A stretch of DNA of 64,000 bases from the NCBI GenBank assembly GCA_037367355.1, contig CM074705.1, forward strand, positions 248,001-312,000. The letters are read 5' to 3'. Below the pieces are notes generated by a model. It was not told the origin of the DNA. It saw only the letters and a program-made list of their open reading frames with translations, and did no database searches. Below, one piece after another: positions 49,201 through 56,255 of this stretch (within the stretch, counting starts at the first letter, position 1; the number at the start of each line of letters is the position of its first letter). The DNA is from Neoscytalidium dimidiatum. Taxonomy: Eukaryota > Ascomycota > Dothideomycetes > Botryosphaeriales > Botryosphaeriaceae. Both the position numbers and the translations under genes were made by a program.

Positions 49201-51043
49201 CTACTTCTCAGCGTGTTTATTCCACGTCGCATTCCGATGTTTCCAATACAACCCACTCTGAATCGCCTTCCTGATCGCATACACGCCACCCACCGGCCAA
49301 TAATCCAGCACCCTCCTCCCCCACCCGCCCTCCTCCTTGATCCTCTTCTCCGCCTCCACATCCACCTTCACCTTTTCGTACACGCTCGGCAAACCCTCCG
49401 CGCCGTACTTCTTCCGCAACGCCTCGTACCACTCGCGATTGTTGTACGTCCGCCAAAACTCGTCTTCGGTGTAGTACGTATGCGCGTAAAGCCACTTCAT
49501 GCCGCCCAGCTCGCGCAGCTTCGCCTCCAAATCGCGATTCAGATCCGCAAAGGCGTCGAAATCGTTCTGCGCGTGCTTCGGCGCCCAGCCCCACAGACCG
49601 ATGTTCAAGAGCGGCTTGAGCCGCGTCTCGGTCGTGCCGGCCTCCATGTTCGCGACCTCTTCGATCTCGTTCGGGTTGTTAGGGTGCATGGTGGGGAGGG
49701 GGCTCTGCTTGAGGGGGCAGAGCCAGAGGGGCCAGATGCCGAACTTGTCGGCCGTGTAGTCGACGAATTTCTCAGCCGTCGGGAAGGGCAGGGCCAGGTC
49801 CTGGACGACGTAGCGCTTGGCCTGGCCGCTGGCGTGCAGGGCGGCGTACAGCATGCGCGTGTGCAGGAAGTCGTCGAGCCACCAGCGCGTGAAGCTGTTG
49901 AAAGGGAAACGGAAGTACTCGAAGGCGGAGCGGCCGACCCAGAAGCCGCCGCGGTCGTAGCGGAAAAGGTATTCGGCGAGCGGGACGGCTTCGGTCTTCT
50001 TGCGGCCGGCCTTGATCTGGTCTTGGACGTGGAGGTAGAACCAGGGGTCTTTGGCGGAGCTAAATGTTTGGACGGGAGAGGTTGGTGATGGCTTGTTGGT
50101 AGCGCGACCTGTGATGATGGCGCCCTCGGTCTTGGAGAACAGGATACCGTCAACGTAGTCGTAGGTATCGGGGTCTTTGATCAACTGCTCGGACAGTTCG
50201 ACCGCCTCAGCCACGCTCGAGACTGGATGATAAGTCGTTTCAACGAACTTTTTGGCTTCCTTGAGCTGCAGCTCTACAAGTGTTGTCACACCGAACGTGC
50301 CAACAGCGCCAGCGGCACCGTGGAATAGATCTGGCATCTCAGTCGGCGAACATCTGACGACCTCTCCGTTGGCAAGGACCATTTCGACCCAGTTAATGGT
50401 CCTGTCGAAATAGCCGTACTTGAACGAGCTGCTTTCGCCAGAAGTACCAGAATACCCGCCACCAACAGTGATACCAGGGAACTCCATGATGACAGGAGGG
50501 ATTAGGCCGTACTTCATCGTCTCCTCAGCAAGGCGATCCATTGGAACATTTGGCTGAACTAGGGCAGTTCGGGACTCGACATCAACCTTGAGCACGTGCG
50601 AGAGACCACTGGTATCAATGAAGTTGGTCTTGCGTCTAGTGGCGGATTGGCGAGTACTGTTAGTTGAGCCGTGGGAAATACGGAACTTCTCTCCTCTTTC
50701 ATGGAAGTTGCGGACATCGGCGGAGATCTTTGCAACAGCCTTTGCGTGATCCTCTAACGATGGGGTTGATGTTGTTGAAGCTTCCAAAGATGAACGCGGA
50801 TATTGAGAGAAGTGGCGAGCATTTTGGCTAGCATTGCCATCTTGGGAAACACGTGCCGGCGGTGCAGGTCTTGGAAAGGTAGGTTGTAGCGGCAACTGCC
50901 TGAGGCTCGATCCAGCGCGTACTTCGCTTCAAGGTCAGTTTGCAGTAATTGGATTCTTGATGGATGCGATGAAGCATACGGGCCGATATCGGACGGAGAC
51001 CAGTGCGCGCAGAGCGTGCGCGCAAGGCAATTGGACTTGACAT
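49201..51043 (-). CDS. DHCR24-like FAD-dependent oxidoreductase (Delta24-sterol reductase family)
   Basis: FAD-binding PCMH-type protein related to DIMINUTO/DHCR24, which reduces sterol side-chain double bonds. The conserved core is on one long exon (50753-49201): FRISHGSTNSTRQS, NVPMDRLAEETMKYGLIPPV, then EFPGITVGGGYSGTSGESSS and KYGYFDRTINWVEMVLANGE. The last three segments match the flavin-binding region of DHCR24. The long open frame continues 5' of this but has no ATG there. A phase-consistent first exon 51043-50923 (MSSPIALRARSARTG) joined over a 169-nt intron gives 557 residues; this 5' end is tentative. Fungal ergosterol synthesis does not need a classic DHCR24, so the true substrate is open. 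Confidence 0.85.
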
Positions 51044-51614: not shown

Positions 51615-52340
51615 TCATCCCACGCTCTTGCTCATTATCATGTAAGATGGGACTTTGACCTTCCCGCCCCTCAACCTCTTAGGTGGCGGACTGAATTCAT
51701 CTTCACCGAAGCCGAGTTTTGTGTAGAAGGCCATTGCGGCGGTATTGCTTCTGAAACAGGTGAGCATGACCTTGTCCACGGCACCTTCAGAAGCGCAGTG
51801 TTCCACAACACGTATCAAGTGCGTCCCTAGCCCGCTGCCTCGATGCGCCTCAGCGAGATGGATCTCGTATATGTATATGACCGGGTAGTCGTCTTCGATG
51901 GTGAACATGAAAGAGACAAAAGCGACGATGTCTTCTTCGACGTCTTTCTCCTGCGGCCTAGATGGGTTTCCGTTGCGCGGATTTTCAGCATCTTTGACAG
52001 AGTCCATTTCGGACGTGCGATGTTTCCGAACAAGCAGGTACTGCATGTGGTCCTCTTTCATTTCGCGCTGCTTGTCTTTCGGATGCCAGCCTCGGGACGA
52101 GTTCTTGTAGTCAGCAGCGGACGTGGACTCGAGGAGCCTGAAGCAGGTCATGAGTTCGTCATCATTAAGAGCAGTGACAGGCTTGAGCGAGATTTCGTAG
52201 TCGCGATGTTGGAGCAGCGAGGACGAGGATGGGAAGAATCGGTCGGCGAAGGCAGCGGGCGAAAGAGCGTTGATCCTGTCGATGAGCTCCTCAGGTTGGG
52301 ATTTCGACCGCTTTAGCCTCTTCAGCAAGCCGCCAGGCAT
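51615..52340 (-). CDS. naa40: N-alpha-acetyltransferase 40 (NAA40/NAT4), histone H2A/H4 N-terminal acetyltransferase
   Basis: GNAT-fold enzyme that acetylates the N-terminal serine of histones H4 and H2A. I start it at MPGGLLKRLKRSK (ATG 52340), giving 241 residues. The frame is open further upstream to 52541, but that would run into the promoter shared with the LYRM2-like gene. The acetyl-CoA motif is AHRGSGLGTHLIRVVEH, preceded by the beta strand PVIYIYEIHLAE. Late conserved text is CFRSNTAAMAFYTKLGF. The segment DYKNSSRGWHPKDKQREMKE is characteristic of NAT4 proteins. It is a likely single-exon gene. Confidence 0.92.
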   Translation of the reverse strand: MPGGLLKRLKRSKSQPEELIDRINALSPAAFADRFFPSSSSLLQHRDYEISLKPVTALNDDELMTCFRLLESTSAADYKNSSRGWHPKDKQREMKEDHMQYLLVRKHRTSEMDSVKDAENPRNGNPSRPQEKDVEEDIVAFVSFMFTIEDDYPVIYIYEIHLAEAHRGSGLGTHLIRVVEHCASEGAVDKVMLTCFRSNTAAMAFYTKLGFGEDEFSPPPKRLRGGKVKVPSYMIMSKSVG

Positions 52341-52542
52341 GATGGCAGCGGCAACGGCAACGGCAGCGAAGCGTACGGGACAGGATCGGGGCGAGTGAAT
52401 AGACACGGTGGACGCGAAGACGCGTCGACGCGTGGTGGTGGGGAGGGCGGCCAAGCTCGACGGAGGTGCACGGACCTCGACGATGACGAGATGGACTTTG
52501 AAGCTTCCATACACTCCGTCTCTCGCTCTTCTTCCTACCATT
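52341..52542. promoter_or_regulatory. Divergent promoter of NAA40 and the LYRM2-like gene
   Basis: About 200 bases separate the two divergent ATGs. The region is GC-rich with no TATA box. Confidence 0.5.
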
Positions 52543-55571: not shown

Positions 55572-56094
55572 GTTGTGGAAAGTCCGTTCATTTTCCTGAG
55601 GGCCACTGTGAGGGGAGCGCTGTGCCTTTTCGTATTGTGGCAAGCAGCTTTCGATTGTTCTCTATGACCGAGTAAGCATTCGGGAGTTGGAGCCACTTTG
55701 CACGTGGCGGATTATGCGCGGTGCGGCTCAATTCAACATCGGATTGTGGCACGTCGAGGAGTTCAACACTTCGTCTACTCTTTATTCTGTATTTATTCTG
55801 CCACAAAGCTTTTGAACTATATTTTTACATTATTTGTTCTTAAATATCACAGACTGTAGAGGCTAGTATTAAGTGAATATCATAAAAGGCTATAGGGATC
55901 GGCTGGAAGTGCGTCCACAAAGAGACAGAAGCTGAGTCAATAATAACGGAGGCGTCTCCCTTCGAATATTACCTTTAGATATGTGTATCAAAGACCTAGG
56001 AACACCAGGCCGTAAAGATACTCAGTGTAGTGTCTGAGTGCATACAAACTTGCATATATAAATTTTTAGGGTGAGTTTTGCCTCAACAATCACA
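55572..56094. other. AT-rich spacer upstream of tRNA-Pro
   Basis: No coding frame. Near its end TATATAAA (about 56055-56062) sits roughly 33-40 bases before the tRNA 5' end, where fungal Pol III genes often have a TATA-like element. A CAACAA stretch near 56083-56088 suits a Pol III start. Confidence 0.55.
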
Positions 56095-56246
56095 GGTCTT
56101 GTGGTCTAGTGGTATGGTAAGTTTGACCTTAAAATTCAAGTGAGAACCTCGAAACATCATTACTAACAATAATGCAATAGATTCTCGCTTAGGGCTTACC
56201 CTGAGTAGCTTGCGAGAGGCCCCGCGTTCGATCCGCGGCAAGACCC
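56095..56246 (+). tRNA. tRNA-Pro(AGG) with a D-arm insert and a standard anticodon-loop intron
   Basis: Acceptor stem GGTCTTG (56095-56101) pairs perfectly with CAAGACC (56239-56245). The anticodon arm is CTCGC / loop TTAGGGT / GCGAG, with anticodon AGG at 56191-56193. The T arm is CCGCG / TTCGATC / CGCGG. A standard tRNA intron of 16 nt lies at 56195-56210, right after the base 3' of the anticodon; its CCCT can pair with AGGG of the anticodon loop. A 64-nt insert interrupts the D arm at 56117-56180. With both removed the tRNA is 72 nt and well formed. The A box (TGGTCTAGTGG) and B box (GTTCGATCC) are intact. It decodes CCU and, with inosine, other CCN codons. Confidence 0.93.
56117..56180 (+). 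other. Spliceosomal-intron-like insert within the tRNA-Pro D arm
   Basis: The insert begins GTAAGTTT, contains TACTAAC at 56161-56167 and ends GCAATAG, so it has the textbook 5' splice site, branch site and 3' splice site with a 13-nt branch-to-acceptor spacing. It sits between the last G of the D loop/stem (56116) and ATTCTCGC. Exact excision restores a normal tRNA-Pro D arm. It is AT-rich, unlike the tRNA. Confidence 0.85.
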
Positions 56247-56250
56247 GTTC

Positions 56251-56255
56251 TTTTT
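56251..56255 (+). terminator. Pol III terminator of tRNA-Pro
   Basis: A run of five T residues begins four bases after the discriminator base. This is the expected termination signal for RNA polymerase III. Confidence 0.8.

Follow-up and report, generated by a model that had tools for sequence, protein, structure and literature searches.

Introduction

Textbooks keep the introns of tRNA genes apart from spliceosomal introns, since the two kinds are removed by different enzymes and belong to the transcripts of different polymerases. Among the described systems that come near this divide is the U6 snRNA gene of Schizosaccharomyces pombe, in which Tani and Ohshima reportedly found an mRNA-type intron (work of 1989 and 1991). 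By its title, a 1990 report by Frendewey et al. is said to concern U6 introns that hold sequence matching the tRNA B box. In another account, the S. pombe U6 intron is described as mRNA-type, and U6 is singled out as the sole Pol III product among the spliceosomal RNAs (PMC10484740). Fission-yeast U6 is the nearest precedent for the genes considered here, as a case in which the spliceosome is known to act on a Pol III transcript. The likeness lies in a spliceosomal intron within a Pol III gene and in a B-box match inside that intron. However, the fission-yeast host is itself a spliceosomal RNA with its intron near the U6 catalytic nucleotides, whereas in Neoscytalidium dimidiatum the candidate hosts are tRNAs for four different amino acids. 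The majority of these tRNA genes carry a canonical intron in addition, and the U6 of this fungus is uninterrupted.

In 1993, Rogers et al. reportedly described messenger-RNA-type introns in fungal nuclear rDNA. These, too, are spliceosomal-type introns in a structural RNA gene outside Pol II, but their host is a Pol I rRNA rather than a tRNA, and it has no internal promoter box that needs rescue. The spliceosomal introns of fungal protein genes have the same kinds of donor, branch motif and acceptor as the inserts described below, and these also occur at several non-tRNA loci that match GTTCGGTRAGT. Here, in contrast, the host is a 72-nt tRNA with exons down to 14-23 nt.

Canonical eukaryotic tRNA introns are described as sitting at position 37/38 (PMC4090602). 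They differ from the inserts reported here in their position and in that no spliceosomal donor, branch motif or acceptor is required. Ectopic tRNA introns in Cyanidioschyzon merolae and Crenarchaeota are described in one account as BHB introns that are cut by the tRNA endonuclease (PMC3978253). As in N. dimidiatum, these introns lie in the D and T arms, sometimes several per gene, and split the internal promoter boxes. However, the N. dimidiatum inserts carry donor, branch and AG signals, and a split B box appears to be replaced within the intron, whereas C. merolae is thought, according to that same account, to transcribe without TFIIIC (PMC3978253). Searches of the open-access literature with exact phrasings for spliceosomal introns in nuclear tRNA genes found none, and such introns are reported in no title or abstract start among the matches listed.

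A tRNA-Pro gene with two intervening sequences

The stretch of DNA analyzed here (the window) comprises 64,000 nucleotides, C11:248001-312000 of the 43.76-Mb N. dimidiatum genome, and feature coordinates are given as window positions. A preliminary description, made from the letters of the window, had recognized a tRNA-Pro gene at 56095-56246 that is interrupted twice, and our analysis confirms these coordinates. The smaller insert had been called an ordinary tRNA intron of 16 nt, and we agree that it occupies the canonical 37/38 position. The larger one had been likened to a spliceosomal intron, and its length of 64 nt and its signals (GTAAGT, then TACTAAC, 13 nt and a final TAG) are borne out, as are the A box, the B box, an upstream TATATA and a T5 terminator. 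The features of the gene are as follows.

56055..56060, + strand: TATATA element, 40 bp upstream of the tRNA-Pro(AGG) gene
56095..56116, + strand: tRNA-Pro(AGG) exon 1, positions 1-23, which holds the A box TGGTCTAGTGG
56117..56180, + strand: spliceosomal-type intron of 64 nt at D-stem site 23/24, GTAAGT ... TAG
56161..56167, + strand: branch-site motif TACTAAC, 13 nt from the insert end
56181..56194, + strand: tRNA-Pro exon 2, with anticodon AGG
56195..56210, + strand: canonical tRNA intron of 16 nt at 37/38, identical in the paralogue at C11:416137-416290
56211..56246, + strand: tRNA-Pro exon 3, with an intact exonic B box (CGTTCGATCCG)
56251..56255, + strand: T5 run, the putative Pol III terminator

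The tRNA position numbers and the A-box and B-box consensus sequences used throughout are those that we take to be standard. Because exon 1 and the insert both end in G, the border of the insert can be slid by one base. ARAGORN at default settings reports no tRNA in the window, and a scan of the window with Rfam at gathering cut-offs gave zero matches. The uncut gene is called as Pro(AGG), but with a 68-nt intron in the wrong place, when ARAGORN is permitted introns of 0-200 nt. Exact removal of the 64-nt insert restores the D arm, just as had been proposed, and ARAGORN then recognizes tRNA-Pro(AGG) whether or not the 16-nt intron is removed too. When the bases of the 64-nt insert are shuffled 20,000 times, the full donor, branch and AG signal arises once.

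Elsewhere in the window, on the - strand, a Delta(24)-sterol-reductase-like FAD protein adjoins a GNAT acetyltransferase (49201-50895 and 51615-52541). In a Diplodia corticola record, Delta(24)-sterol-reductase-like FAD and GNAT domains are fused in a single protein. Two proteins encoded in the window have their best matches in Botryosphaeriales, one at 47% identity to Botryosphaeria dothidea and the other at 86% to Diplodia seriata, a member of the Botryosphaeriaceae.

Interrupted tRNA genes across the genome

Across the genome, pattern and BLAST searches brought up 12 GT-AG inserts of 51-64 nt, which are distributed over 11 tRNA genes that look intact. Seven of the inserts lie in the D arm, at 18/19, 23/24 or 24/25, and five in the T loop, at 57/58. 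At least 12 such introns in 11 tRNA genes appear to form one set in this species. An assembly error that made 12 different inserts, each with splice signals, does not seem credible.

The interrupted genes include all four Pro(AGG) genes found, both Pro(CGG) genes, three intact initiator Met genes, the sole Gly(TCC) gene found and one of five Asp(GTC) genes. Six places in the genome match the pattern of the Pro anticodon arm, GATTSTCGCTTNGGG, exactly. They are the four genes for Pro(AGG) and the two for Pro(CGG), all interrupted. Three of the Pro(AGG) genes hold inserts at the same D-stem site (23/24). The remaining one, at C7:504189, holds two, of which the first separates G18 from G19 and the other lies in the T loop. 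T-loop inserts are also present in both Pro(CGG) genes, together with a 50-nt canonical intron, in the Gly(TCC) gene (C11:1798854) and in the Asp(GTC) gene at C6:3301848. The initiator tRNA-Met arm, GGGCTCATAACCC, gives exact matches at four places, all of which are interrupted between 24 and 25, and BLAST alignments of these loci break at the identical base in four of four. Three of the initiator Met copies look intact, and the fourth, on C12, is decayed. Eight of the 11 interrupted genes have a canonical 37/38 intron as well.

Removal of the inserts leads ARAGORN to read the expected tRNA at all 12 loci (the 11 intact-looking genes and the decayed one). When the same loci are left uncut and introns are allowed, the program returns nothing in seven, a misplaced intron in two and the wrong isotype in three.

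The interrupted genes might instead be disabled tRNA copies that were hit by insertions, with intact copies elsewhere doing the work. The preliminary description had named clean Pro(AGG) copies elsewhere as one sign of this, and all four Pro(AGG) loci found are interrupted. The decay of the C12 initiator Met copy and the four uninterrupted paralogues of the interrupted Asp gene would fit such a history. However, exact arm patterns and BLAST found no uninterrupted gene for Pro(AGG), Pro(CGG), initiator Met or Gly(TCC), and because these four tRNA species have no uninterrupted copy among the loci found, we judge the disabled-copy explanation to be very improbable. It also fits poorly with exons that are identical between paralogues or that carry paired changes, as in the intact-looking iMet_3 (C3:1838956), where both strands of the acceptor stem have changed together (AGCTGAA/TTCAGCT), and with the persistence of splice signals and B-box-like sequences while the remaining insert sequence diverges. 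When broken stems or a lost promoter, with intact copies elsewhere, are taken as the marks of a tRNA pseudogene, only iMet_4 on C12 qualifies.

These counts depend on the reach of the searches. A genome search with RF00005 gave 63 matches, 24 of them on C40, and missed Ile, Phe and other tRNAs that were found later; because so many loci were missed, absence from that list is uninformative. BLAST with approximate fungal tRNA queries matched only initiator Met, Ile and Phe. BLAST with exon-joined queries returned a single locus for Gly(TCC) and five for Asp, of which four are uninterrupted, and missed the fourth Pro(AGG) gene, whose exons are short. Therefore, that search is not exhaustive, and the count of one for Gly(TCC) is a minimum. 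Pro(TGG) was not located in this incomplete tRNA inventory.

A search for further T-loop introns with GTTCGGTRAGT gave 27 places (79 for the reversed control), of which five are the tRNA sites, and inspection of the remaining 22 by eye found no tRNA. An AGAGCG search for D-arm inserts gave 71 places, and none of the 20 inspected, all with GTAAG, was judged to be a tRNA. Each of the 51 other nuclear tRNA loci returns a match when ARAGORN is run with introns allowed. That run alone cannot exclude more inserts among them, because five of the 12 uncut interrupted loci also match, and the isotypes that it names cannot be relied on, since ARAGORN shifts the position of the intron. Read letter by letter, these 51 loci have at most an anticodon-loop intron (C9:745855, the 39th nuclear RF00005 match, lies outside the set). 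The ratio of 11 interrupted to 51 other loci is biased because the family search favors uninterrupted genes.

Contig C40, which lies outside the window, carries mitochondrial-type tRNAs twice, with 12 pairs 176.84-176.91 kb apart, which looks like the double assembly of a circular mitochondrial genome of ~177 kb.

Splice signals of the inserts

All 12 inserts in the intact-looking genes have a GTRNGY donor, CTAAY 8-13 nt from their end and a terminal AG. The donors are GTAAGT in nine cases and GTAAGC, GTGAGT and GTATGT in one each. As in U2-type introns, a GT donor with extended consensus and an AG stand at the exact exon borders in 12 of 12, and the fungal branch motif CTRAY lies at the proper distance in the same number. 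GTRNGY, CTAAY and AG occur together in only 0-2 of 20,000 base-shuffles per insert. We therefore consider it very likely that the window gene is a tRNA gene transcribed by Pol III, that its 64-nt insert is a true spliceosomal intron of the U2 type, and that this intron is one of a set. The earlier view of a spliceosomal-type D-arm intron in an undecayed tRNA-Pro gene is supported and gains strength from the other members of this set. Group I or group II introns were considered and rejected, since the inserts measure 51-64 nt and a catalytic core some hundreds of nucleotides, and the window yielded nothing at Rfam gathering cut-offs.

The serious rival to a spliceosomal origin is that the inserts are ectopic BHB-type tRNA introns, which the tRNA splicing endonuclease would remove at non-canonical sites. 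D-loop and T-loop tRNA introns are described in the red alga C. merolae (PMC3978253). Moreover, a 4-bp central helix is possible in four of the 12 inserts (three of five in the T loop, two of these being paralogues, and one of seven in the D arm) versus 10% of shuffles. The central helix and the full flanking helix can both form in three of the 12, all in the T loop and two of them paralogues, and this capacity for BHB-like exon pairing counts against the spliceosomal reading. The test is a weak one, given that the canonical introns of the same genes have the central helix in three of eight cases and the flanking helix as well in two of eight (paralogues). However, a BHB origin leaves GTRNGY, CTAAY and AG in 12 of 12 inserts unexplained, the central helix is absent in eight of 12, and sites 18/19, 23/24, 24/25 and 57/58 differ from 37/38, the usual site in eukaryotes. 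On balance, endonuclease-cut introns seem to us a distinctly unlikely explanation.

Promoter elements and intronic B-box-like sequences

All 11 genes keep an intact A box, and in each a run of at least four T begins no more than 20 nt downstream. An upstream TATA-like element is present in only four of the 11. D-arm inserts keep the B box whole, and T-loop inserts break it between TTCG and A, such that the B box is exonic in six genes and a B-box-like sequence is intronic in five. For scoring, a B-box weight matrix was built from 42 of 50 other nuclear tRNA loci, the other eight having been dropped for their poor fit to a loose consensus. The reference B boxes, which were chosen by their likeness to the consensus, score 13.2-17.9 on this matrix of their own, and the split junctions of the T-loop inserts score -6.9 to -13.0.

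A B-box-like sequence on the sense strand is found at intron nucleotides 11-15 in five of five T-loop inserts, with scores of 13.2, 13.2, 11.6, 8.5 and 8.3 (both values of 13.2 come from paralogues) and a chance expectation of 0.001-0.010 per insert. None of the seven D-arm inserts reaches a score of 4 (best 3.9). Because the T-loop inserts are mostly unlike one another outside the signals and TTCGA, the intronic B box looks as though it has been kept by selection. The weak intronic B boxes of Gly(TCC) and Pro(AGG)_4 (8.3 and 8.5, respectively) speak against the interpretation of these genes as spliceosome-dependent Pol III genes, as does a TTTT within the T-loop insert of Gly(TCC); five consecutive T occur in no GT-AG insert.

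Spliceosomal introns normally belong to Pol II transcripts, and it could be argued that these loci yield spliced non-coding RNAs with tRNA-like sequence or tRNA precursors made by Pol II. However, every one of the 11 genes has an A box and ends in a T-run terminator, and each of the five T-loop inserts holds a B-box-like sequence. These features point to Pol III, and we find transcription by Pol II most unlikely.

Paralogues, probable intron gain and decay

Three Pro(AGG) genes share identical exons (72 of 72 positions), and two initiator Met genes likewise have identical exons. Between the GT-AG introns of such identical-exon paralogues, 10-13 of 14 signal positions agree, an agreement that arises partly by construction because the positions were chosen by motif. 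The rest of these introns agree at 50-62% of positions, compared with a mean of 57% for aligned shuffles of one pair. Two of the Pro(AGG) genes with D-stem inserts (L043 and L044) have identical exons and identical canonical introns, and their GT-AG introns differ. This contrast implies that the two kinds of intron differ in evolutionary rate or that the gene was only partly converted.

The Asp genes on C6 and C5 offer a filled and an empty site. Their exons are identical, their canonical introns agree at 35 of 36 positions, and a 51-nt GT-AG insert in one corresponds to a clean empty site in the other.

L055, C6:3301776-3301934: Asp filled site, with the 51-nt insert
L120, C5:3361444-3361551: Asp empty site, uninterrupted

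The empty-site paralogue confirms one border of the insert, and no target-site duplication was found at this pair. Intron gain is the simpler reading because four of the five Asp genes are without the insert, and the pair would make a good natural case of intron gain without target duplication. Transposon insertion was rejected as a source of the inserts, given the lack of target duplication at this one filled/empty pair and the single-copy state of the window insert, the only insert for which a second copy was sought in the genome. The decayed initiator Met locus (L087, C12:1574909-1574958) has GC in place of the GT donor, and CTRAY is absent.

The T-loop introns were also compared as a possible single homologous family. 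When the signals and TTCGA are removed, one of six pairs of T-loop introns gives p<0.05 (p of 0.003), compared with five of 49 other pairs. Two 3' tails of T-loop introns give p values of 0.013 and 0.037. The T-loop introns of L039, L040, L055, L057 and L049 have GAA within their last 7 nt, which could pair with the exonic TTC before the donor. Such pairing is possibly structural or BHB-like.

Discussion

We infer the following order of events, in which the use of Pol III, splicing by the spliceosome and the sequence of steps are all proposals. TFIIIC would bind two elements, namely the A box, which is not disrupted by D-arm introns, and a B box that lies in the exon or, in genes whose exonic box is split by a T-loop intron, within that intron. 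Pol III would then transcribe to the T run. In the nucleus, the spliceosome would excise the GT-AG intron and thereby restore the tRNA elbow, and only afterward would the tRNA splicing endonuclease cut the 37/38 intron, where present. Our reason for placing the spliceosome first is that the tRNA endonuclease is thought to make its contacts with the folded body of the tRNA; Sen54 and the D arm are singled out in the accounts available (PMC3978253, PMC4090602).

Some observations count against a role for the spliceosome. U6, the known host of such introns, has a single match in this genome, which is uninterrupted. In addition, the terminal exons of the interrupted tRNA genes are very short, at 16-23 nt.

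Initiator Met allows no substitution through wobble. Because every initiator Met, Pro(AGG) and Pro(CGG) gene found is interrupted, essential tRNAs should need both the spliceosome and the tRNA-splicing enzyme. It is likely, in our view, that spliceosomal introns have spread through the tRNA genes of a fungal lineage, so that initiation depends on the spliceosome and two unrelated splicing machines act in sequence. The same proposal holds that T-loop introns sit in the B box with a replacement promoter box inside them, and that reverse splicing or gene conversion perhaps carries them from one T loop to another.

Standard tRNA finders can miss or misread tRNA genes that are split in this way, which should serve as a warning. 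If our interpretation is true, the divide between tRNA introns and spliceosomal introns would be broken, and the capacity for translation would be tied to the spliceosome. Intron gain, reverse splicing and the splicing of uncapped Pol III transcripts would then become directly testable.
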